Shown here: positions 1,217-16,998 of the stretch, in pieces
How the letters are laid out: each line of letters begins with the position of its first letter
How positions within the stretch are numbered: the first letter of the stretch is position 1
Assembly (NCBI GenBank): GCA_902619805.1
Contig: CACNGC010000014.1
Location: 1-37,276, forward strand
Direction of reading: 5' to 3'
Source: an uncultured SAR116 cluster alpha proteobacterium
GTDB taxonomy: Bacteria > Pseudomonadota > Alphaproteobacteria > Puniceispirillales > Marisalimonadaceae
Length of the DNA: 37,276 nucleotides
The notes under the pieces: generated by a model
The model's database searches: none
What the model was told of the DNA's origin: nothing
What the model saw: only the letters and a program-made list of their open reading frames with translations
Position numbers and translations under genes: made by a program

Positions 1217-2062
1217 CTATACTAATGTCAAACCTTTGTTTTTGACTATCTTCAAACTTTCTTCCCATAAAAGATCGGCATCATTTTGACTTTGCGCAAA
1301 TATTGAAGGTTCATCTATTTTACTTTGATAGAAATATTTTCCAGTAATATTTTTAACACTATCATCAGTAGATAAATAAATAATTGTTTTAGCACCTTCT
1401 TCTACTGATATTGCAAAAAAATTCATTAGAAACTTTATAGCTAAACTGGCAATACCGTTATTGTTTTTTCCAAATTGGGTTTTAACAAAACCAGGATGAA
1501 GACAATTAACAGTTATTTTATTTTTTTTTGTTAATGCACTCAATTTTTTTGTAAATAAAATATTACATAATTTTGATTTTTTATAAGCTATCCAGCCGTT
1601 ATAATTTGTTGTCATTTCTAAATTATTAAAATCGATTTTCACACCTCTATGTGCACCGCTAGCAACATTAACTATTCTTCCTCCGTTTTTTATAACTTTA
1701 TATTTTAATAATATATTTGTAAGAATGAAATATGACAGATGATTAAGTGCAAATGTTTTTTCTATTTTGTCCACACACTCTTTTCTTGAAAAAAACAATG
1801 CACCAGCATTATTAATAAGAATATCAATTTTAAATTTTTTTAATTTGTCTGCTAACAATTTAATTTCTGAAATTGATGAAAGATCACATTGTATAAAACT
1901 AATATTTTTGTTTGATGTCTCTTTTATTAAATTTCTGACTGATGTTTCACCTCTTTGTTTATTTCTACCTATTAAAATTATTTTGTTTTTAATCTCTTTA
2001 CCTAAAACCTGAGCTGCTCTATAACCAAGCCCACTTGTACCACCCGTAAGAACTATATTCAT
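1217..2062 (-). CDS. Short-chain dehydrogenase/reductase (retinol dehydrogenase-like)
   Basis: 281 residues, a full-length classical SDR. The Rossmann motif TGGTSGLG is at residues 6-13, NNAG at 84-87, the catalytic Ser at 135, and YKKSK supplies Tyr160 and Lys164. The overall pattern (CDLSS after the second strand, HPGFVKT after the active site) resembles the retinol-dehydrogenase/WW-oxidoreductase branch, which are NAD(P)-dependent alcohol or ketone oxidoreductases. The ATG overlaps the thiE stop in an ATGA arrangement, so the two are probably translationally coupled. Position third in a TPP-riboswitch operon suggests a role in processing a thiamine-related alcohol or aldehyde, but this is inference and the substrate is unknown. 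Confidence 0.9.
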   Translation of the reverse strand: MNIVLTGGTSGLGYRAAQVLGKEIKNKIILIGRNKQRGETSVRNLIKETSNKNISFIQCDLSSISEIKLLADKLKKFKIDILINNAGALFFSRKECVDKIEKTFALNHLSYFILTNILLKYKVIKNGGRIVNVASGAHRGVKIDFNNLEMTTNYNGWIAYKKSKLCNILFTKKLSALTKKNKITVNCLHPGFVKTQFGKNNNGIASLAIKFLMNFFAISVEEGAKTIIYLSTDDSVKNITGKYFYQSKIDEPSIFAQSQNDADLLWEESLKIVKNKGLTLV

Positions 2063-2724
2063 TTATCTGAGCCTTTTTTTATATTTTCTTTCAATTTATA
2101 TAAATTTTCTATTGGATTATATTCATTCAATATTGCCGATATTACTGCTACACCAGAAACTCCTAGTTTAAACATATCACAAACATCATCTATTGAAATA
2201 CCACCTATTGCAACAACTGGAAGTTCTGTCTTATTAATGATTTCTCTTAATGTATTAGAACCCATTGGCAAAGATGCGTTATTTTTTGAACCGGTGGGAA
2301 ATATTGGTCCAACACCAAGATAATTTACACAATTAGGTATATTATCTAATTGATTTTTATTTGTAATAGATAATCCAATTTCAATATTTTGATCTATCAT
2401 TTTTTTTGCTTCATTTGGTTTCATATCAGACTGTCCAAGATGAAGTATATCAATTAAACCTTTGCACTTAGAAGCAACATTTACATTATCATTAATACAA
2501 AGCTTCATTTTAGTATAAGATGTTGCTGAACTAAGACCTTTTATAAGATCTATGATCTCGTTATCATTCATTGATTTAGCTCTCAATTGAAAAACATCAA
2601 GACCATTTTCTGCTAGCTCACTAACTATTCTAACAAGTGCTTTATTTGGATTTTCACTTTTGTATATATGATTAGGAAGTAAATTTTCAGGACCTGCAAT
2701 AAAATAAGATTGAAGATTAGACAT
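2059..2724 (-). CDS. thiE: Thiamine-phosphate synthase ThiE
   Basis: 221 residues, usual ThiE length. It joins HMP pyrophosphate and hydroxyethylthiazole phosphate to make thiamine monophosphate in the cytoplasm. The TIM-barrel family motifs are present in order: FQLRAKSM, the Mg-binding INDNVNVA, HLGQSDM, YLGVGPIFPTGSK for pyrophosphate and thiazole binding, VVAIGGI and GVAVISAI. The start overlaps the end of thiM by 8 nt and the stop overlaps the following SDR by 4 nt, so the three genes form one transcript. Pairing with thiM, with no thiC, thiG or thiD in view, points to salvage of the thiazole moiety, although de novo genes could lie elsewhere. Confidence 0.95.
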   Translation of the reverse strand: MSNLQSYFIAGPENLLPNHIYKSENPNKALVRIVSELAENGLDVFQLRAKSMNDNEIIDLIKGLSSATSYTKMKLCINDNVNVASKCKGLIDILHLGQSDMKPNEAKKMIDQNIEIGLSITNKNQLDNIPNCVNYLGVGPIFPTGSKNNASLPMGSNTLREIINKTELPVVAIGGISIDDVCDMFKLGVSGVAVISAILNEYNPIENLYKLKENIKKGSDK

Positions 2725-3535
2725 TTTTAATTTTTACATTACTTATGATTTCGTCTGTAGAAATATTATATAATTTGTCTATTAGATTCATTCTTAAACT
2801 TCCTGGTCCTTGAGAAATTTTACACGCCATTTCTCCTGCTAAACCATAAACACCAATTATTGAAGCGGTTGAACGAACTTTATTTTCACCAACTGCTATA
2901 GCCGCCCCAATTAAACAAGTTAATGCACAACCAGTTGCCGTAACTTTGGTCATCATCTCATGACCACCCTCAATAGCATAGGTAACATTACCATCAGTTA
3001 CATAATCAATTGCTCCAGTAACTGCTACTATAATTTTATTTTTTTTAGCTATAGAAATTGCAGCATCTAGCGCATCATTAGAGGTTGAAGTAGAGTCCAC
3101 TCCTTTACCTCCACCAGATAGTCCTGCTACAGCCATAATTTCTGATCCATTCCCCCTTAGTATTGTTGGTTTAAATTTAATAAGTTGCTCAACATTTTTG
3201 TTTCTAAAGCCACTAGCACCAGCGCCAACCGGATCTAAAACCCAAGGAATATTATTTTCGTTTGCGTGCTTCGCTGCTTCCAATGCACATTCTTGCCAGT
3301 ATGGATCAAAGGTACCTATATTGATTGTTAACGCACCGTTGATCGCTTTACAAATTTGACTAAAATCTTTTGCTTCTTCTTTAGCATGTGCCATTGCAGG
3401 AGACGCTCCAATTGAAAGTAAAGCATTAGCGGCAATATCCATAGAGACAAAATTTGAAAAATTCCATACTAATGGACCTTTATCCCTTATATTCGTTAAA
3501 AGTTCTGAAGCAATTTTGGATAATTCATTGGACAT
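2717..3535 (-). CDS. thiM: Hydroxyethylthiazole kinase ThiM
   Basis: 272 residues. ThiM phosphorylates 4-methyl-5-(2-hydroxyethyl)thiazole so ThiE can use salvaged thiazole. Visible family features are FVSMDIAANALLSIGASPAM near the N-terminus (residues 29-48), WVLDPVGAGAS (98-108), RGNGSEI (127-133, usually RGNASEI), VTGAIDYVTDG and the ATP-site VTATGCALT with Cys203 in the usual cysteine position. The N-terminal WNFSN replaces the more common HNITN pattern. The gene is first in the operon, about 70 nt downstream of a TPP riboswitch. The chosen ATG has an AAGGAA ribosome-binding sequence 7 nt upstream. Confidence 0.95.
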   Translation of the reverse strand: MSNELSKIASELLTNIRDKGPLVWNFSNFVSMDIAANALLSIGASPAMAHAKEEAKDFSQICKAINGALTINIGTFDPYWQECALEAAKHANENNIPWVLDPVGAGASGFRNKNVEQLIKFKPTILRGNGSEIMAVAGLSGGGKGVDSTSTSNDALDAAISIAKKNKIIVAVTGAIDYVTDGNVTYAIEGGHEMMTKVTATGCALTCLIGAAIAVGENKVRSTASIIGVYGLAGEMACKISQGPGSLRMNLIDKLYNISTDEIISNVKIKNV

Positions 3536-3607
3536 ATTATTTCCTTATTTTAAAAATTATTATTTTACATTTTTACAGGGAATATGTTTTAAATTTTAAA
3601 TTTAAAT

Positions 3608-3693
3608 TAGCAACTCCCTCCGCTGGTCTTAACCAGATCAGGTTTTAAGGGTTTATCTCTCAGCAAAAAATTTTGCACCCCTGGCAATGTTAG
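3608..3693 (-). promoter_or_regulatory. TPP (thi-box) riboswitch
   Basis: On the minus strand this stretch carries the thi-box core: a GGGGTGC arm, GCTGAGA followed by ACCCTTAAAACCTGATCTGG, then TTAAGACCAGCGGAGGGA. These are the conserved pyrimidine-sensor and pyrophosphate-sensor helices of the TPP aptamer. It lies between a TATAAT-like box and the thiM start, in the same orientation. TPP binding would be expected to repress thiM-thiE-SDR-MFS. No GC-rich terminator with a U-run is visible between aptamer and start codon, which favours control of translation initiation. Edges are approximate to a few nucleotides. Confidence 0.95.
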
Positions 3694-3806: not shown

Positions 3807-5213
3807 ATGAGGGTTATTGTGGAAAGAAAATTATTTGCAGTTGTTGCAGCAGACATGGTAGGATTTTCAAGGTTAATTGAAGATGATGAAATTAATTTAC
3901 TCTCAAGACAAAAAAATCAATTAAACATAATTATTAAACCAGAAATAGAAAATTATAATGGTGAAATAATCAAAACAACTGGAGATGGGTTTTTAGCTAC
4001 CTTCCCAAGTGCACTAGATGCTGTACAAAGTAGTATATCTATACAAAATGGGATTTATGAAAATGAATTAGAAAAACCAAATGATAAAAAAATAAGATAC
4101 AGAATTGGTATCCACGTTGGTGACGTGGTCTTAGATGATGGAGATATTTTTGGAAATACTGTAAATATTGCAAGTAGATTAGAGTCAATAGCTGATGCTG
4201 GAAACATCTGTATTACATATGATGTTTACCAAAGTATAAAAAATTTAAAATCCTTAGCTGTTGAAAATATTGGTGAGCAGTTATTAAAAAATATTTCTCA
4301 AAAAGTTCAAGTATTAAAAATAAATACTGATAAATACGATTTAAACAAAAATGAGAAAAATCTTTTGTTAACAGAGGCCAATCAGGAAACAAGATTTTGT
4401 AGTTCATCAGATGGAACCATTATTGCTTATGCAAGTATTGGAAATGGACCGCCATTATTAAAAGCACCAAATTTTATGAGTAGTTTAGAACATGATTGGA
4501 GAAGTCCAGTTTGGACCCACATTTATAGGCATTTAGCAAAAGAGCATACGCTTTACAGGTTTGATCAAAGAGGTAATGGTGTTTCAGACCTTAATCCTGA
4601 AAATATAAATTTTGATTGTTTTGTAGATGATATGCAAGCAGTAGTGGATGCAGCTAATATTGATAAATTTCCAATTTTTGGTGTATCACAAGGATGTGCA
4701 GTTTCAATAGCCTATGCATATAAAAATCCAGAAAAGGTTACTCACTTAATATTGTCAGGGGGATTTGCAAGAGGAAGGGCCAAAAGAGGAACGCTTGATT
4801 TTGATCAAAAATTAGAGTTAGAAAAAAACATGATATTAAATGGATGGGAAAATGAAAATCCTGCATTTAGACAATTTTTCACATCTACTATGATACCAGA
4901 TGGTACTAAAGAGCAAATGGATTCATTGAATAATGTAATGAAAATTTCAACATCCGCGAAAAATGCAGTAAGAATTCAATCAGCTAACGACCAAATAGAC
5001 GTTTCTGACTTGTTACCATTATTAGATATACCTACTTTAATTTTTCATAATATAGATGATGAAAGAGTTCCAATTTCAGAAAGTAAATTTATGGCTGCAA
5101 ATATAAAAAATTCTAGATTTGTGCCATTAAAAGGAAATAATCATGTTATTCTTGAAGGTGATGAAGGTTGGCCTATATTTCAAGAAGAATTGAAAAAATT
5201 CCTTAAACAATAA
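3807..5213 (+). CDS. Class III adenylate cyclase fused to alpha/beta hydrolase
   Basis: 468 residues, two domains and no membrane segment. Residues about 7-170 are a class III nucleotide cyclase: metal aspartates Asp16 (AADMVGFSRL) and Asp60 (KTTGDGF), adenine-specifying Lys56 and Asp113, and GNTVNIASR with Asn120 and transition-state Arg124. All key residues are present, so an active adenylate cyclase is expected. Residues about 195-468 are an alpha/beta hydrolase with nucleophile elbow GVSQG (Ser294), Asp417/418 and His446. This cyclase-hydrolase fusion is a recurrent bacterial arrangement of unknown purpose; the hydrolase half may sense or process a small ester. A GTG at 3819 preceded by GAGGG 5 nt upstream may be the true start; the ATG at 3807 has no clear ribosome-binding site. 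It lies 30 nt upstream of an acyl-CoA dehydrogenase, probably co-transcribed. Confidence 0.9.
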   Translation: MRVIVERKLFAVVAADMVGFSRLIEDDEINLLSRQKNQLNIIIKPEIENYNGEIIKTTGDGFLATFPSALDAVQSSISIQNGIYENELEKPNDKKIRYRIGIHVGDVVLDDGDIFGNTVNIASRLESIADAGNICITYDVYQSIKNLKSLAVENIGEQLLKNISQKVQVLKINTDKYDLNKNEKNLLLTEANQETRFCSSSDGTIIAYASIGNGPPLLKAPNFMSSLEHDWRSPVWTHIYRHLAKEHTLYRFDQRGNGVSDLNPENINFDCFVDDMQAVVDAANIDKFPIFGVSQGCAVSIAYAYKNPEKVTHLILSGGFARGRAKRGTLDFDQKLELEKNMILNGWENENPAFRQFFTSTMIPDGTKEQMDSLNNVMKISTSAKNAVRIQSANDQIDVSDLLPLLDIPTLIFHNIDDERVPISESKFMAANIKNSRFVPLKGNNHVILEGDEGWPIFQEELKKFLKQ

Positions 5214-8490: not shown

Positions 8491-8514
8491 TTTTTTTTTG
8501 TTCAATTCTTTTTT
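8485..8514 (+). terminator. Weak terminator-like hairpin after the acyl-CoA synthetase
   Basis: AATTGA and TCAATT could form a 6-bp stem around a T-rich loop, overlapping the stop codon, followed by a run of six T. The stem has only one G-C pair, so efficiency would be low. The next gene is 90 nt downstream in the same direction, so read-through into the signalling operon is possible. Confidence 0.3.
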
Positions 8515-8580
8515 AATAAAAAATATATATTTACATGTTAAATAATTTTTTTATCATTAAATAATGATGATGAGTTATTT

Positions 8581-9363
8581 ATGATTATTAATCATGGGGT
8601 ACGGGGATCAACACCAAATCCAAGCCAAGATTATTTGTTTTTTGGCGGCAACACTCCTTGTGTAGAAATTAAAACTCAGAAATATCAACTTATTTTCGAT
8701 TGTGGTTCAGGGTTTTCAAAAGTTAATTTTTCAAACGATCTTGAAACGATTTTATTTATTTCTCATTTCCATCATGATCATATACAAGGATTAGCCTTTA
8801 ATGATTATGATACTAATATTAGTAAAAAAATTACTTTAACATCTGCTCATTCTAACAAAACTGATACCTACAATAATTTAAGTTCTTACTATAGTAATCC
8901 TTATTTTCCAGTTAATTTTATTGAAATTATTAATAAGTTTACTTTTTTAGATTTTGAACAAGTTATAAATAATTTTGAAGACTTAGATATTGATACTATT
9001 AATCTTAATCATCCTGGTAATTGCTCTGGGTATAGTATTATAAGTAATAAAAAAAAGTTTTGTTATCTATTAGATAATGAATATGAAGATATTCAAGAGG
9101 ACAAATTGATTGATTTTTGTGATCAATCAGAAACTATCATCTGGGATGGCATGTTCTTAGAAAGCGAGTTATCAGACAAAAAGGGTTGGGGGCATTCTAG
9201 TATTGAACAGGGCATTTCTCTAGCAGATAAAATTGATGTTAAAAACTTTCTTATTTCTCATCATTCACCTTCCAGAGGTGATAAAGAAATAAAAGATATA
9301 GAAAAAAAAATTAGTAATAAAAAAGTTAAATTTGCATCTGAAAATGAGGTTATAGAGTTCTAA
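8581..9363 (+). CDS. Metallo-beta-lactamase-fold hydrolase, TaR3/phosphodiesterase-like
   Basis: 260 residues. The metal-binding signature HFHHDH is complete (His62, His64, Asp66, His67), with further candidate ligands His144, Asp165 and His227/228. The N-terminus GVRGSTPNPSQ, then FGGNTPCVEI and DCGSGF, and later LNHPGNCSGYSI, match the MBL subgroup whose members start G-x-RGS-x-P and contain GGNT-x-CVE. They are often listed as metal-dependent hydrolases or cyclic-nucleotide phosphodiesterase-like, but with little biochemistry. The stop overlaps the start of the cyclic-nucleotide-binding gene by 1 nt (TAATG). In this operon a phosphodiesterase that removes the second messenger, or an effector hydrolase gated by it, are the two obvious possibilities; both are inference. 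Confidence 0.88.
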   Translation: MIINHGVRGSTPNPSQDYLFFGGNTPCVEIKTQKYQLIFDCGSGFSKVNFSNDLETILFISHFHHDHIQGLAFNDYDTNISKKITLTSAHSNKTDTYNNLSSYYSNPYFPVNFIEIINKFTFLDFEQVINNFEDLDIDTINLNHPGNCSGYSIISNKKKFCYLLDNEYEDIQEDKLIDFCDQSETIIWDGMFLESELSDKKGWGHSSIEQGISLADKIDVKNFLISHHSPSRGDKEIKDIEKKISNKKVKFASENEVIEF

Positions 9364-9701
9364 TGGAAAAAACTAAATTCAATCAAAATCAAAGTGTTTT
9401 TAAAGTTGGCGAACTTCCTGATAAGATGTACTTGTTGGTAAAGGGATCTGTGGGAATTTTTCTACCCACAAATGAATCAAACAAACCAAATTTTATAATT
9501 CAAGAAAACGAACTTTTTGGTGAAATGGGCGTAATAGAAAACGAATTAAGGATGGCCACAGCAAGGTGTTTAGTTGAAAGTGAAATTATTTCAATTACCA
9601 AAGACGAATTTGATAAAAGGGTTAATAATTCCGATGTCTTTGTAAAAGGATGCTTAAAAGCTTTGTCATACAGACTAAGATCAGTTGAAAAAAAAATGTA
9701 A
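9363..9701 (+). CDS. Stand-alone cyclic-nucleotide-binding domain protein
   Basis: 112 residues, a single CRP/PKA-type cNMP-binding beta-roll with a short C-terminal helix and no DNA-binding domain. The phosphate-binding cassette is recognisable: FGEMG with Glu54 for the ribose 2'-OH and RMATA with Arg63 for the cyclic phosphate. The beta-roll turn DKMYLLVKGSVGIF (20-33) is typical. It starts inside the stop codon of the MBL hydrolase (TAATG), so translation is coupled and the two proteins may act as a pair; in some genomes these two domains occur fused (from memory, not checked). It is 25 nt upstream of the multi-PAS kinase. Likely the reader of the cyclic nucleotide made by the operon's cyclase. 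Confidence 0.88.
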   Translation: MEKTKFNQNQSVFKVGELPDKMYLLVKGSVGIFLPTNESNKPNFIIQENELFGEMGVIENELRMATARCLVESEIISITKDEFDKRVNNSDVFVKGCLKALSYRLRSVEKKM

Positions 9702-9712
9702 TAAGAAATTTG

Positions 9713-9720
9713 AAGGAGGT
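9713..9720 (+). promoter_or_regulatory. Near-perfect Shine-Dalgarno before the hybrid kinase
   Basis: AAGGAGGT lies 6 nt before the ATG at 9727. It is the strongest ribosome-binding site in the window; most other genes have only AGGA or GAGG. It supports this start and suggests that the large kinase is translated independently rather than only by coupling. Confidence 0.8.
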
Positions 9721-9726
9721 TTTTAA

Positions 9727-12700
9727 ATGGAAATTAATATTAAATTAGCTGAAAGTTTAATAGATGCATTTGACACTGAAGAAACTGGCATAGTTCTATG
9801 GGATGCTAATGATAACATTGCTTACAGAAATAAAAATATTTCTGAAAGATTTATTAAGTTAAATATTGACTTTGAAGTTGGACAAAATTTTTTTGATAGA
9901 ATTAAATTAATTAAAAAAAATAAAATAATATCGTTAAAAGAAGTAAATATCCGCGAAAAAAATTATGTTACTGCTAAAAATACAGGAAAACCTCAACAAT
10001 TTGTAATCAAGGGACCTACTGGTAGATGGGTACAAATAAAAGATACCCCAACATCTGAAGGTAATATGTTAACATTAATGACTAACGTCACTGAAATTGT
10101 TGAGCAGGATCTTGAAAGAAAAAGATTAGCCAGTGCAATAGAAAATGTACCGCTCATTATACAATACTGGGATGAAAATGATAAATTAATTTTTGCAAAT
10201 GCAAAGGCTGATGAGTTGCATGAACAATGGGAAGTTAATTGTAGATTTACTAAGGGACTAGCATATGAAGATATGGTGCGAGCTCAACTTTCAAGCAAGA
10301 TATTTAAAATACCAGAGGGTGAAACTATTGAAAGTGAAATTAAAAAGAGAAAAAAATATAGAAAAAAAGTTTCATCAAATTATAGAGAAGTTTTCTTGGA
10401 AAATGGTAAAACTTGGTATGTTATTGATAAGAGATTAGATGATGGTTCATTTTTAAGTATATTTAGTGAAATTACTGATATTAAAAATAAAGAAGCTCAA
10501 TACAAACAATTGGCAGACGCGTTGGATAATCTACCTATGCCAATGTTATTTTGGGATAAAGAAGATAAATTAATTACATCAAATAAAAAATCTCGAGAAT
10601 TTCAAGGAAAATGGAAAATTAAACTTGAAGACGGAATGTCTTGGGAGTCAATGTTTAATAAACAAATTAAGGCAGGTGTTTATGTTATTCCAGAAAATAA
10701 AAGTATTAAAGATTTTACAAAGGAAAGATCAAACTTTAGAGCTGAATTAATTCAAGATAGAAAAAGAGAAACATTTTTATCAGATGGTACTACTTTCTTT
10801 AGTAACGAAATACGTCTTGAAGATGGTTCAATGCTGAGTGTTTTTACAGATATAACTGAAATTAAGGAAAGGGAAGTTAAATTAACCCAATTAACAGATG
10901 CCATAGAGATTTTACCTAACGACGTCATGTTATGGGATAAACAAAATAATCTAGTGATGGCGAACAAAATAGCCCGTGAAAATCAAAAAAAATATGGTTA
11001 TAAGCTTGTAGAGGGAGCCTCTCGAGTTGGTATGGTTGAAAATTTACTTAAACGTGGTTTTGTAAAAGCTCAAAATAAAATGACTCCAAAAGAATTTATA
11101 GAAAATAGAAAAAAAGATTTCGTAAATTTAAAGGGTAATAGAACATTTGAGCACGCCCTTAATGATGGTTTGGTTAACTTAGTTTCTACCACAAGATTGC
11201 CAAGTGGAGGTACAGTCCAGTGTTTAACAGATATTACTGAATTAAAAAAACAAGAAGCTGAATTATTAAGATTAAAAGACGGAATTGAGACACTCCCAAA
11301 CGGTTTAATGTTATGGGATGAAAATGATGATCTTATTGCGTTTAATAAAAGTTCAAAGAAATTTTTAAAAGATTATGGATTTGATTTAAAAATAGGAAAA
11401 AATTTTAGTGAATTAAGAAAGCATATGCTTATGAACCATCAAAAACCTCCTAAGGGTGTAAGTAAAGAAGATCATTACAAAAATAGAGAAAAAGCATGGA
11501 AAAATCTTAAAGGTCAAAATATTAGAGAATCTAATTTCACTAATCACACTCTTCATTTTTCTGATACAAGATTAGAAGATGGTAGCACAATTTGCTTATG
11601 GACTGACATTACTGACATAAAAAATCAAGAAAGAGAACTTTTAAGATTAAAAGATGCTATTGATATATTACCAAATGGTTTGTTTTTCTGGAATGAGAAC
11701 AATAAATTAATAGCAACTAACAAATCTGCCATTGATCATCTAAAAGAATTTGGATTTGATTTGCGTCTAGGAGTTGATAGGTTTGATCATGTCAATCACT
11801 TGGTTGATCATAATTATAACGTTTTACAAAGTGGATTAGATAAAAAAACTCACATGAAACGTATGAAAGAAAGTTGGGATAACTTTACTGGTCAGCGAAC
11901 AAGAGAAACAAAATTTTCAAATGGATTACATTTTCTCTTTACTGACACCAGGTTAGAAGATGGAAGCACGATCTCACTTTGGTCTGATATAACAGAGATT
12001 AAACAGGTGGAAGATAGTCAAAAACAACTTATTGACGCAATTGACGTTATGCCTAACAGTATTTCTTTGTGGGACAAAGATAATAAACTAATTATGGCAA
12101 ATAAAACATCAATTAATGATATGAAAAAATTAAACTTTGAATTGAAACCGGGAGTGCCAAGAATTTCCATGGTAAGTAACGTAGTAAATCATGGCCTGGT
12201 TCCTATTCCAAAAGGAATGACAAAAAAACAATTTTATGAAGCAAAATTGAGAGAATATGAAAGTTTAAAAAATGAACAGAGAGACGAAATAGAATTAAAC
12301 AATGGTAATTTTGTTTTAAATATATCTAAAAGATTACCAGACGGTGGAACACTGCAAAACTCCATAAACATTACAGAGATTAAAAAAGGAGAAAAATCAT
12401 TAAAATTGCTTAGTGATGCTATAGAAATCATTCCAAATATGCTAATGCTTTGGGACAAAGACAACAAATTAATTATGGCAAATCGTCGTGCCAGAGATAT
12501 TCAGAGTAAAATGGGAATTATTCTTAAACCGGGTATTTCTAGATTTGATATGCTTGAAGCTGGATTAAAATCAGGATCTTTGCTTGATAGCGAGGGTCTT
12601 TCTGCAAAACAATGGGTAGAAAAGAGAAAAAAAGAAATTGTTAATCTTCGTGGCAGGGAAATAGTTGAAACTAGGATAAAAGTTGAAAACGTTATTTATG

Positions 12701-15594
12701 ATATTTTAGGCTCATTCACTAGATTAAATGATGGGGGAACCTTACAAGTTTGGACTGATATTTCAGAGATTAGGCAAAAAGAAAGAGAGGTTGCTGAAAG
12801 TCAGAAAAAAGTTAGAGAAGCTGAGGAAAAAATTTCTAATGCTCTTAATAGTATGCCCCATGGAATTGTCATGTGGGATGAAAAAGACAAATTAAAAATG
12901 ATTAATGAATATGGAAACAAGGTTCTTGAGAGAGGAGGTGTATTTGTAAAGCCTGGTGTTAATTATAAAGACTATATAAAAATGCAGAAAATGAATAATT
13001 TCCATAAATTCAATAGTAAGAGAGAAAAGGAAGAATATTATGAAGTAGGATTAAAAAACAGAAAAATTTTAAAAGGTGTTACAACTGTAGAAACGCCACC
13101 ATTTTATGATGATTCAATATGGCAATCAACATCTACACGCCTGCCAGATGGTGGTATATTTTCAATTTTATCTAATATTACTGATATAAAACAAAGAGAA
13201 AAATCACTTAAACAGCTTAATGATGCAATTGAGGTAACTCCAAACGCAATCTTATTGTGGGATAATGAGCATAGATTGATTATGGGTAACAAGGCAGCTA
13301 GGGACATTCAAAAAAATTTAGATTATGAGTTAAAACCCGGAATTTTAAGAAAAGATATGATCGATAATGTTGAAAAAAAAGGGTTGGTTGCAATCCCTGA
13401 AGGAATGACAAGTAAAGATTTTTATGAACAACGAAGACAAGCTGCAAAGAATAAAAAAAGTAATATGTATGAATTAAATTTTACAAATGGATTTGTGTGG
13501 TTAGTGAATGACACAAAACTATCTGATGGTGGTTTTTTACAAGTTTATTCTGATATTACCGAAATGAAAGAACAAGAAAAGCAAATTAAGCGAGCACGAG
13601 AAAAGGTAAAGGAAACTGAAAAGAAAATGTCTGACGCTTTAAATAGCATGCCTCATGGAATTACTATGTGGGATAAAGATGACACTTTAGTTTTTGCTAA
13701 TACATTTGCTAGAGAAATACAGGGTGGTGCTGGTGTAGAGTTTGATATTGGGGAAAGGTATGAAGATTATCTTCAAAAACAAAGAAAACATAAGTTTATG
13801 AAATTTGATAGCCCTGAAGATGAAAATGAATATTATGACAATGCAATAGAAAACAGGAGAAATATTAAAGGTGAGGTAACTTTTCAACCACCTCAATTTT
13901 ATAATAATACATATTGGAACGCTACCTTCAATCGTTTAAATGATGGTGGACTTTTTGCAATATTTTCCAATATTACTGAATTAAAAAAACGTGAAGAAGA
14001 ATTAAATAAAACAATTTCAGAATTAGATATAGCAAGAGAAAAAGCAGATGCTGCTAATCAAACTAAAAGTCAATTTCTGGCAAACATGAGCCATGAATTA
14101 AGAACTCCTTTAAATGCTATTATAGGCTTAACAGAGATGTTAAAAGAAGATGCTGCAGATGATGGCTTGGACGACTTTGAAGAGCCACTGGACAGAGTTT
14201 TCAGTGCAGGAAAGCATCTATTAACGCTTATAAATGATGTGTTAGATTTATCAAAAATTGAAGCAGGAAGGGTTGAGTTGTTTAACGAGACATTCGAGCT
14301 AAAACAAATTTTGGATGATGTAATTAAGACATCTTTACCATTAGCTCAAAAGAACGAAAATGAATTAATAATAGATTATAAAACAGAAATTGATTTTGTA
14401 ACTGCTGATCAAACAAGAGTGAAACAAGTGGTTTTAAACTTAATTTCTAATGCTTGTAAATTTACTGAAAAAGGGAAAATAACTGTTGGAGTAAATAAAA
14501 TTTTACGTGAAGGTGGTGATCTGATTTCTGTAGATGTAAGTGACACTGGTATCGGTATGTCAGAAGAGCAGATGTCTAAGTTGTTTAATTCATTTGTACA
14601 GGCTGATAGCTCAACAACAAGAAAATATGGTGGAACAGGTTTAGGTCTTACTATTTCAAAACAGCTTGCCATATTAATGGGTGGTGATGTCGAGGTAAAT
14701 AGTGATTTAGGAAAAGGTACTACTTTTACTGCAACATTTTTAGCAGACTTCATTGGTGCATCTGAAAGTGTAAAAAAATTACAAACAAAAACTGGTTCTT
14801 TAATTGAAAATGTTGTTACTTTAGAAAATAATACTGGAAAGACAATCTTAATAATTGATGACGATCCAACTGTAAGTGAATTAATGAAACGACAATTGTT
14901 AAAAGAAGGATATAAGGTAGTTATTGCACCTAATGGAAAAGAGGGAATTACTTTAGCACGTGATCTTAAACCTGACGTTATTACTTTAGATATTTTGATG
15001 CCTGAAATGGACGGGTGGTCAGTACTACGCACTTTAAAAGCTGACCCTAAAGTTTCTAATATCCCTGTAATTATGGCTTCAATATTAGATGAGAAAAATA
15101 AAGGATTTTCTCTGGGAGCTGCAGATTTTTTATCAAAACCTATCCAAAAAGAATATCTAATGAAATCAATAAGAAATTTAATAGGTGATAAAGAAAATCT
15201 TAAAATTTGCCTTATTGAAGATGATGAAAGTTTAAGATTTACAGTTAAAGAAATTCTTGAAAAACAAAATGTTCAAATCATGGAGGCAGAAAACGGCAAA
15301 GTTGGAATGAATATTTTACAGAATGAAGAAATAAAACCTGATTTAATTTTGTTAGATTTGATGATGCCGGTAATGAATGGTTTTGAATTTTTAAAAGCTA
15401 TAAGAGAAACTGAATTAAATTCAATTCCAATTTTAGTTTTGACTGGAGCTGAATTGAGTGAAGATGAAAAGAAATTCTTGTCAGGGGAAACACAAAGAAT
15501 ACTTGAAAAAAGTGAAGATACAATGTCTACAATCGTTAATGAAGTAAGTAATGTTATTAAGGCTTCTTCATTTAAAAATGGAGATAACAAATGA
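9727..15594 (+). CDS. Giant soluble hybrid histidine kinase: 11 PAS, HisKA, HATPase, two receivers
   Basis: 1955 residues with no signal peptide or membrane segment, so cytoplasmic. I count 11 PAS modules starting near residues 12, 133, 260, 387, 515, 640, 767, 894, 1035, 1163 and 1300. Most open with a helix like DAIEILPN followed by [12 protein letters not shown] and end in DGGTLQ..TDITEIK; the style resembles PAS_7. Next come HisKA with SHELRTPLN (phospho-His1456), HATPase_c with N-box NLISNACKF (near 1570), DTGIG and GGTGLGL, receiver 1 (IIDDDP, phospho-Asp1755) and receiver 2 (LIEDDE, phospho-Asp1877). Short charged coiled linkers precede PAS 9 and 11. No Hpt domain is seen. The stop overlaps the next receiver gene (ATGA). 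The ligand is unknown: no obvious haem or flavin signature such as a LOV GRNCRFL motif is present. Confidence 0.95.
10126..13980 (+). repeat. Tandem PAS-encoding modules of about 380 bp
   Basis: Within the hybrid kinase gene, PAS modules 2-11 recur with a period of about 127 codons (modules 2-8) stretching to 128-141 codons where coiled linkers are inserted. Two sub-types are seen: those with LPNxLMLWD-like openings (3-8, 10) and those with SMPHGIxMWD plus a preceding charged helix and a PPxFY segment (9 and 11). The 9-10 and 11 arrangement suggests that a two-module block was duplicated after the earlier single-module expansion. Borders are approximate. Confidence 0.85.
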
Positions 15595-15965
15595 CAAAGA
15601 TATTATATGTAGAAGACAACGAAGACAATGTTTACATGTTATCAAGACGTCTAAAAAGGAAAGGTTTTGAAATAGTTATTGCTGTAGACGGAGAACAGGG
15701 TGTTGAAATGGCATCTTCAGAAAAACCAGATCTTATATTAATGGACTTAAGTTTGCCTAAAATGGATGGATGGACTGCAACCAAACACATTAAAAGTAAT
15801 GAAAAGCTTAAATCAATTCCAATAATTGCTCTATCAGCACATGCAATGGAAGAACATAAACAAAGAGCACTTGATAGTGGATGTAATGATTATGATACAA
15901 AACCAGTAGATATCAATAGGCTATTATCTAAAATATCAGAGCAATTAGGTACTAAAAATGATTAA
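15591..15965 (+). CDS. Single-domain response regulator (DivK/Spo0F-like)
   Basis: 124 residues, a lone receiver domain with no output. The acidic pocket Glu8/Asp9 (YVEDNED), phospho-acceptor Asp52 ([14 protein letters not shown]), Ser/Thr switch region IIALSAHAM and Lys104 (DYDTKPVD) are all present. The sequence style is that of DivK and Spo0F relatives, which shuttle phosphate or bind partner kinases. It overlaps the kinase gene by 4 nt and the receiver-cyclase gene by 8 nt, so it most likely works between them. Alternatively it could be a phosphate sink. Confidence 0.93.
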
Positions 15966-16998
15966 CAAAGAGGATGCAAATATTCTAATTGTTGATGATA
16001 TTGAAGATAATAGATACACACTTGAAAGAAGGTTAAAAAGAGACGGTTATAAAAATATTTTTTTAGCAGAGGGTGGTAAAACTGCTCTTGAGATGGCCGC
16101 AGAAAATAAATTTGATTTAATTCTCTTAGACTTAATGATGCCAGATATGAGTGGCCTTGAGGTTCTTAAACATTTAAAAGGTGATCCTCTTCAAAGATCA
16201 ATTCCAGTAATTATGGTTACTGCATCAGATGAAGTTGAGACTGCTGCTGAATGCATAATTAATGGTGCAGACGATTTTATTACTAAGCCATTTAATGGAA
16301 CCTTGCTCAAAGCCAGAGTAGGTGCAAGTTTAGAGAAAAAAAGATTAAGAGATACAGAAGAAAGTTATTTAGACAGAGTTGAAACAGACAAAAAACGATC
16401 TCAACAAATTTTAAAAACGGTGATGCCTACTTCTGTAGCTAATGAATTACAGTCGTCTGGAAAGGTAAGGTCTAGAAGATATGATGATGTAGCAATTTTA
16501 ATATGTGATTTAGTTGGATTTACATCTTTTTGCGAAAAAAATGATCCTGAATTAGTAGTAGAAACATTACAGGGTCTTGTGGAGAATTTTGAAAAAGCCT
16601 TTGAAGATTTTGGTTTAGAAAAAATCAAAACAGTTGGAGATGCCATTGTTGCAGTTGCAGGTTTATCTTCACACACCATTTCTCCTGTTAAATCTTGTGT
16701 AGATTGTTCTTATAAATTAAGAGATATTGCAAATTCGTCATCAATGCCCTGGGATCTTCACCTTGGAATACATTCTGGTTCTCTTGTTGCTGGAACAGTT
16801 GGAACAAAAACAGTTCAATTTGATATTTTAGGAAAAACAGTAAATATGGCATTCAATATATGTGATATGTCTGATTCAAATCAAATTCTTATTTCTAGTG
16901 ATGCTTGGATGACAGCAAGAAATGAAATTAAAGTTAAGTCAATTGGTTTAAAAAGACTTAAAAGTGGTCAAGATATTGAAATGTTAGAGTGTGTTTAG
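15958..16998 (+). CDS. Receiver-class III nucleotide cyclase response regulator
   Basis: 346 residues. Residues 1-125 are a receiver (VDD at 12-14, phospho-Asp58, Lys110); a helical linker (about 126-165) follows, then a class III cyclase domain (about 170-346). Metal-binding Asp184 (ICDLVGFTSF) and Asp228 (KTVGDAIVAV), and adenine-selecting Lys224 and Asp289 (QFDILGKTVN), are retained. The transition-state pair is changed: in GKTVNMAFNICD, Asn296 is present but the position four residues later, normally Arg, is Asn300. Class III cyclases act as dimers; loss of this Arg usually lowers activity strongly, so output may be weak, altered, or need a partner cyclase. The start overlaps the preceding receiver by 8 nt. 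It ends 2 nt from the stop of the convergent PhyH gene. Confidence 0.93.
   Translation: MINKEDANILIVDDIEDNRYTLERRLKRDGYKNIFLAEGGKTALEMAAENKFDLILLDLMMPDMSGLEVLKHLKGDPLQRSIPVIMVTASDEVETAAECIINGADDFITKPFNGTLLKARVGASLEKKRLRDTEESYLDRVETDKKRSQQILKTVMPTSVANELQSSGKVRSRRYDDVAILICDLVGFTSFCEKNDPELVVETLQGLVENFEKAFEDFGLEKIKTVGDAIVAVAGLSSHTISPVKSCVDCSYKLRDIANSSSMPWDLHLGIHSGSLVAGTVGTKTVQFDILGKTVNMAFNICDMSDSNQILISSDAWMTARNEIKVKSIGLKRLKSGQDIEMLECV

Follow-up and report, generated by a model that had tools for sequence, protein, structure and literature searches.

A conserved metallo-beta-lactamase and cyclic-nucleotide-binding protein pair, often beside changing class III cyclases in Alphaproteobacteria, that may form a split phosphodiesterase

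GbpA and GbpB of Dictyostelium, which belong to class IIb, are phosphodiesterases (PDEs) of the metallo-beta-lactamase (MBL) type in which the MBL domain is followed by domains that activate the enzyme on binding cyclic nucleotide monophosphates, or cNMPs (PMC11988041). They are the closest working precedent for two adjoining genes in a 37,276-nt stretch of DNA from an uncultured SAR116-cluster alphaproteobacterium, which is one contig (CACNGC010000014.1) of a 1.98-Mb draft genome (GCA_902619805.1) and is referred to, at its full length, as the window. The two genes specify an MBL-fold hydrolase (8581–9363, + strand, 260 aa, PF12706 or Lactamase_B_2; hereafter MBL) and a stand-alone cyclic-nucleotide-binding protein (9363–9701, + strand, 112 aa, Pfam cNMP_binding, PF00027; hereafter CNB), and they head a five-gene operon at 8581–16998 that continues with a hybrid histidine kinase, a single-domain receiver and a receiver-cyclase. 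As in GbpA and GbpB, an MBL part is followed by a cNMP-binding part; the Dictyostelium enzymes, however, are single chains with two binding domains, whereas the window has two genes, one small binding domain and a predicted activity, and the two are likened by description, not by sequence. The conserved unit proves to be the MBL–CNB pair, which is more general than the five-gene circuit proposed in an initial annotation of this DNA. The pair is real, well conserved and often found beside changing cyclases, and it may work as a split, cNMP-gated PDE.

Other described systems share parts of this design. The atypical class-II PDEs (Rv1339, YhfI and Corynebacterium glutamicum CpdA) have PF12706 and the motif [T/S]HxHxDH in common with MBL, both being stated features of that class (PMC9293780), but MBL falls far below their curated model and is paired with a separate CNB. 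MBL, at 260 aa, is shorter than ribonuclease Z (RNase Z), whose model has 302 positions. In Bd1971, a cyclic AMP (cAMP)-sensing EAL phosphodiesterase of Bdellovibrio, a CNB domain governs a phosphodiesterase, as is proposed here, and six named contacts are kept in the window protein, but the Bd1971 domain is fused to an EAL domain that acts on cyclic di-GMP. Dictyostelium RegA (PMC11988041) resembles the locus in having a phosphorelay input to cAMP turnover, yet it carries its receiver on the phosphodiesterase, whereas in the window the receiver is on the cyclase. Pycsar (PycC plus a CNB effector) is brought to mind by weak PADLOC matches of the window cyclase and CNB, and the phage protein Apyc1 (7u2r) is a structural match of MBL; Pycsar differs in that the window CNB, at 112 aa, is without a TIR, membrane or other toxic effector domain. 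A role in anti-phage defence was considered and is disfavoured: MBL had no PADLOC match at E 0.01 and no match in the phage collection, and the PADLOC matches of CNB and cyclase were weak only. A search of the open-licence literature found no report of a bacterial PDE built from an MBL and a separate CNB.

The pair is distributed widely. Among 136 genomes of the order, 70 had a match to MBL, and 57 carried both MBL and CNB, 13 MBL only, 2 CNB only and 64 neither (any MBL match was accepted, weak or partial ones included, and CNB at 120 bits or more), a co-occurrence count that is inflated by draft gaps, which catch or miss neighbouring genes jointly. The nearest named relatives of MBL come from SAR116-cluster single-cell genomes and metagenome-assembled genomes, at up to 91% identity. 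A scan of named genomes retained 80 of 120 confirmed loci, 33 of which (L073–L105, 47–91% identity) were taken as belonging to the window's family; the remaining 47, together with 6 more, gave 53 loci outside the family, with flanks of unequal length, for counting neighbours (L138 and L139, apparently duplicates, were both counted). In 34 of these 53 loci CNB is the next gene after MBL and has the same orientation, and in 39 it lies within 3 kb. Outer relatives of MBL occur in 194 of 387 genomes of the class at E 1e-15; among 28 such loci (L155–L182, 1.5-kb flanks), CNB directly adjoins MBL only in L155, and three more have weaker CNB matches in longer open reading frames (ORFs) nearby. On a Sinorhizobium plasmid, an MBL relative lies about 3.2 kb from a cyclase gene, and the nearest plasmid CNB, from Azospirillum, has no MBL among its listed features. 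No natural MBL–CNB fusion was present among the ORFs listed for the fetched loci, and no search aimed at fusions in general was made. Genus g12 has a second, separately arranged pair, in which a 110-aa CNB is convergent to a more distant MBL (L072:3971-5134). Three contigs labelled Euryarchaeota (L139), Gammaproteobacteria (L148) and SAR324 (L149) carry an otherwise alphaproteobacterial cluster, and are perhaps mis-binned.

Class III cyclases are concentrated around the pair. With a cyclase profile iterated on the fetched loci themselves, 42 cyclase ORFs were found within 4 kb of the pair (0.371 Mb) in the 53 non-family loci, against 2 further out (0.392 Mb), that is, 113 versus 5 per Mb; the binomial p of 1.8e-11 assumes independent loci, and these loci are related. 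At least one cyclase lies within 4 kb in 28 of the 53. The genome-wide background was 139 matches in 51 genomes of the order, in which the presence of MBL and that of a cyclase were associated (23/4 versus 10/14, Fisher p 0.0015), weakly so given shared ancestry. Clustering, for which L139 and L071 were dropped, a limit of 4.5 kb from MBL was applied and the two window cyclases were added, divided 42 cyclases into 11 clusters: six are multi-member (recurrent and full-length) and five are single, namely the window's two and three others, among them L149_1, which is cut by a contig end. The flanking cyclases occur on both sides and both strands of the pair, their Pfam types include cyclase-only, TPR, GAF-PAS and ferredoxin-domain proteins, and same-strand three-gene runs are seen both as cyclase–MBL–CNB (L186, L108) and as MBL–CNB–cyclase (L141, L148). 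One cyclase with a 2Fe-2S ferredoxin domain (L055:2389-4062, − strand) adjoins the CNB gene, a possible redox input. In L054, a CNB fused to an HlyD-type membrane-fusion protein (10814-12814, − strand) lies near MBL and two cyclases, and similar long CNB ORFs are found in L058, L059 and L068.

For MBL, PF12706 is matched at 37.4 bits (cut-off 27), the likely metal ligands are H62, H64, D66, H67, H144, D165 and H227, and the motif S/T-H-x-H-x-D-H is present in all 25 alignment rows. When the MBL profile was compared with PDB sequences, the top entries were 1zkp and YhfI (6kns), BA1088/YhfI being ranked first by a small margin; cAMP and cyclic GMP (cGMP) are given as the preferred substrates of YhfI (PMC9117128). 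Identity between MBL and YhfI is 16–18% in the structural alignment. These comparisons suggest a likeness to YhfI-type phosphodiesterases, with RNase Z almost equally close. In a midpoint-rooted tree, 60 MBL rows separate from five outgroup rows with full support, subject to a long-branch warning.

CNB matches PF00027 at 56.8 bits (cut-off 27.5) and, as the initial annotation had stated, is without a DNA-binding domain, its 112 aa comprising the cNMP-binding domain only. F52, G53, E54, M55 and R63 are invariant in 18 of 18 rows, and R104, L105 and R106 nearly so. The closest structures to its model (predicted local distance difference test, pLDDT, 84) are those of the Bd1971 sensor, several of them entries with bound cAMP or cGMP. 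In the comparison with PDB sequences the first row was a Toxoplasma protein with many CNB domains (9ya0, which together score 112 bits), and the best single-domain match was the cAMP-sensing domain of Bd1971 (82 bits, ungapped, 30–32% identity). With the residue offset fixed by Glu58, E54, M55, R63, R104, L105 and R106 correspond to Glu58, Met59, Arg67, Arg108, Leu109 and Arg110 of Bd1971 (PMC6717892), and the Arg110–Asp63 pair of the latter maps to R106 and E59; the contact Ser68 is not kept, being Met64 in CNB and Ser in some relatives. CNB keeps most of the Bd1971 cAMP contacts and is predicted to be a cAMP/cGMP sensor with a largely canonical pocket. The cyclic-nucleotide theme of the initial annotation is therefore borne out, by the conservation of the pair, its enrichment beside class III cyclases and the ligand residues of CNB, and the same three lines of evidence favour, as a hypothesis, its suggestion that CNB gates MBL.

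Within the window's family, the five genes resolve into two modules. The family search covered 58 genomes, many of them incomplete drafts, and MBL was found in 33. The receiver-cyclase shares a contig with MBL in 26 of these 33; the two are split by contig ends in G028 (seen in the locus) and G032 (judged from coordinates), the kinase-cyclase module is elsewhere in G045 and G046, and the receiver-cyclase was not found in G044 (100% complete), G047 (84%) or G053 (56%). Twenty family loci were fetched, of which 15 have the order MBL–CNB–kinase–receiver–cyclase and five have MBL–CNB alone; because the identical order recurs in 15 of 20, the arrangement is more than chance. G017 has the order swapped, to kinase–receiver–cyclase–MBL–CNB. 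In G045 and G046 the kinase is preceded by a remnant with an MBL-like start and a CNB-like end (L183:13132-13395 and L184:8138-8365, both − strand), as though a single deletion had removed most of both genes, and each genome keeps an intact MBL–CNB pair beside a PhyH gene. Since these two genomes hold the remnant plus an intact pair elsewhere, MBL and CNB look like a single unit, apparently one that can act in trans. At E 1e-40, orthologues of the receiver-cyclase were found in 36 of the 136 genomes of the order, all of them in the window's family, and in none of the 78 outside it. The conserved adjacency to kinase and cyclase genes that had been anticipated thus fails at the level of the order and holds in the family. 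The reading of the five genes as an indivisible circuit is not supported, as the pair persists outside the family without the receiver-cyclase, which in five of the 33 MBL-bearing family genomes is elsewhere or was not found.

It is proposed, as a reading to which we give almost as much credence as doubt, that the two proteins make up one split phosphodiesterase gated by cyclic nucleotides, with MBL as its catalytic and CNB as its regulatory subunit, and that this enzyme limits the messenger made by interchangeable cyclases. The proposal draws on the gene structure, the conservation of the pair, its closeness to many kinds of cyclase, and the conserved CNB pocket and MBL metal ligands. A class III cyclase would make cAMP (or cGMP); CNB, presumably in contact with MBL, would bind the messenger and turn MBL on, activating rather than inhibiting it; and the activated MBL, whose substrate would be a cNMP, would hydrolyse the same messenger and make each rise self-limiting. 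The pair would serve any available cyclase, and in the window's family (SAR116) the PAS hybrid kinase, receiver and receiver-cyclase of the same operon would add a phosphorylation-controlled input, the kinase probably phosphorylating the receiver-cyclase. Several marine Alphaproteobacteria, with genomes of only some 2 Mb, have 10–26 matches to class III cyclases, and the way in which they terminate the cyclic-nucleotide signal is not obvious (among 16 genomes of 1.5–2.3 Mb, G517–G532, PF00211 matches numbered 10–26 in 14, and 3 and 4 in the other two). A conserved hydrolase–sensor pair that occurs next to such varied cyclases is a straightforward candidate for the off-switch and, if the proposal is true, a split-gene counterpart of GbpA and GbpB. 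The fuller picture is slightly more tentative: a bacterial two-subunit cNMP-gated PDE with a separate 112-residue sensor would serve ocean Alphaproteobacteria as an off-switch, kept close to class III cyclases that can replace one another, and in one SAR116 family would have been linked to a phosphorelay that has many PAS repeats and a cyclase possibly changed in its chemistry.

CNB could also gate an MBL whose substrate is not a cNMP but RNA, a cyclic phosphate of the phosphonate pathway, a cyclic dinucleotide or another phosphodiester, in which case the pair would be an output of cAMP signalling and not its off-switch; we consider this a serious possibility, though a rather doubtful one. Several observations on MBL support it, and count against the proposed cNMP phosphodiesterase. 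The [T/S]HxHxDH motif and PF12706, although present, are non-specific, being common to RNase Z; RNase Z models gave the top NCBIfam scores, below cut-off; Foldseek returned ELAC1 as the first match, with PhnP-type structures among the matches too; the RNase Z score of MBL, with its two pieces summed, is not below that of another gene of the same genome; and no gene passed the RNase Z cut-off in any of eight genomes checked. MBL may work like an atypical class-II PDE, judging by sequence, and is described in that way and not as a member of the curated family (NF041851, Rv1339/YhfI type), because its score of 22.1 bits lies below the cut-off of 400. The pair is also conserved while the cyclases change. 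On the other hand, the sequence profile puts BA1088/YhfI first, if narrowly, and RNase Z itself was rejected as the identity of MBL, the curated cut-off having been missed by far (TIGR02651, 72.9 bits against 292.95), although MBL may share the chemistry of that enzyme. A position close to cyclases would fit a phosphodiesterase and an output enzyme alike.

That the five genes form one dedicated phosphorelay-to-cNMP circuit, with parts that work only together, is unlikely: the recurrent family order, the shared contigs and the adjacency of the two modules in G017 even in swapped order would all fit such a circuit, but the pair occurs without the receiver-cyclase in G044, G047 and G053, the module is elsewhere in G045 and G046, and the receiver-cyclase, not found outside the family, is without the usual Arg. 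It is very improbable that MBL, CNB and the cyclases are neighbours through common descent or old gene order with no functional tie. The loci are indeed related, and 25 of the 53 have no cyclase within 4 kb, but several cyclase clusters, on both strands and both sides and in rearranged orders, do not amount to one inherited order, and both genes of the pair were apparently lost at one site in G045 and G046. Moreover, a search of the genomes behind 23 of those 25 loci, and of two other genomes, gave PF00211 matches at E 1e-5 in every one of the 25 genomes (2–26 each). The loci that are without a neighbouring cyclase also tell against the proposed phosphodiesterase, as do several related cases: no nearby cyclase was found in the 16-row L117/L118 branch or in G077 (L063), a genome in one contig; in G094 the pair is present with zero cyclase matches at E 1e-8; G132–G134 have an MBL match, with no CNB at 120 bits and no cyclase at E 1e-8; L054-type loci contain MBL and cyclases without a stand-alone CNB; and in G069 and G070 CNB lies beside a GAF-cyclase, separate from the MBL contig.

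As for the window itself, the five-gene spacing given earlier was confirmed from ORFs and junction letters (1-nt overlap, 25-nt gap, 4-nt overlap and 8-nt overlap), as was the Pfam domain content of all five products. The hybrid histidine kinase (9727–15594, + strand, 1955 aa) has PAS repeats, HisKA (H1456), HATPase_c and two Response_reg domains (D1755 and D1877). Eleven PAS domains had been counted; Pfam gives 10 PAS_7 stretches and a motif scan likewise 10, the eleventh being readable by eye only. The reported absence of an Hpt domain from the kinase was upheld by Pfam at E 1e-3, and Hpt (PF01627) was found in none of eight genomes, in a search that did not cover the ChpT type (PF10090); direct phosphorylation of the receivers and a ChpT-type transferase are both possible routes. 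Across relatives (L033–L048, L183, L184 and L193), the kinase ORF measures 1315–2082 aa from stop to stop, with a frame break in L036, and several relatives' contigs end within the gene. Because kinase length varies while the receiver and receiver-cyclase stay at about 90% identity or more within a genus, repeats seem to come and go rapidly in the PAS sensor.

The single-domain receiver (15591–15965, + strand, 124 aa, Response_reg; D52) is followed by the receiver-cyclase (15958–16998, + strand, 346 aa, Response_reg and Guanylate_cyc), in which the phospho-acceptor Asp was correctly placed at residue 58. Class III cyclases use a pair of metal-binding Asp residues, a Lys/Asp pair that specifies adenine, and an Arg that stabilises the transition state. 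In the receiver-cyclase the metal Asp residues (D184/D228) and the adenine-specifying pair (K224/D289) are present, but N300 replaces the usual Arg (VN.AFNI against VN.A(S/A)RL and similar in other aligned cyclases), and Asn stands at this position in every orthologue row in which the motif can be read (50 rows, redundant between collections). Since the transition-state Arg is replaced, catalysis, and with it the messenger synthesis assigned to this protein, is in doubt though not disproved.

MBL is preceded by a 90-nt gap (8491–8580, + strand) with a single promoter-like match at 8530–8557; in the promoter and terminator scan, the count of promoter-like matches was below that in shuffled sequence. 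Another class III cyclase, in one protein with an alpha/beta hydrolase (3807–5213, + strand, 468 aa, PF00211) and absent from the initial annotation, lies 3.4 kb upstream of MBL on the same strand and keeps the canonical catalytic residues. Between the two are an acyl-CoA dehydrogenase gene and then a CoA-ligase/ATP-grasp gene, which ends 90 nt before MBL. The alpha/beta-hydrolase-cyclase is still upstream of MBL–CNB in G044, and directly upstream of it in G004. Further towards the 5' end, a thiamine pyrophosphate (TPP) riboswitch (68 bits, 3598–3692, − strand) stands ahead of thiazole-kinase and thiamine-phosphate-synthase genes at 2059–3535.

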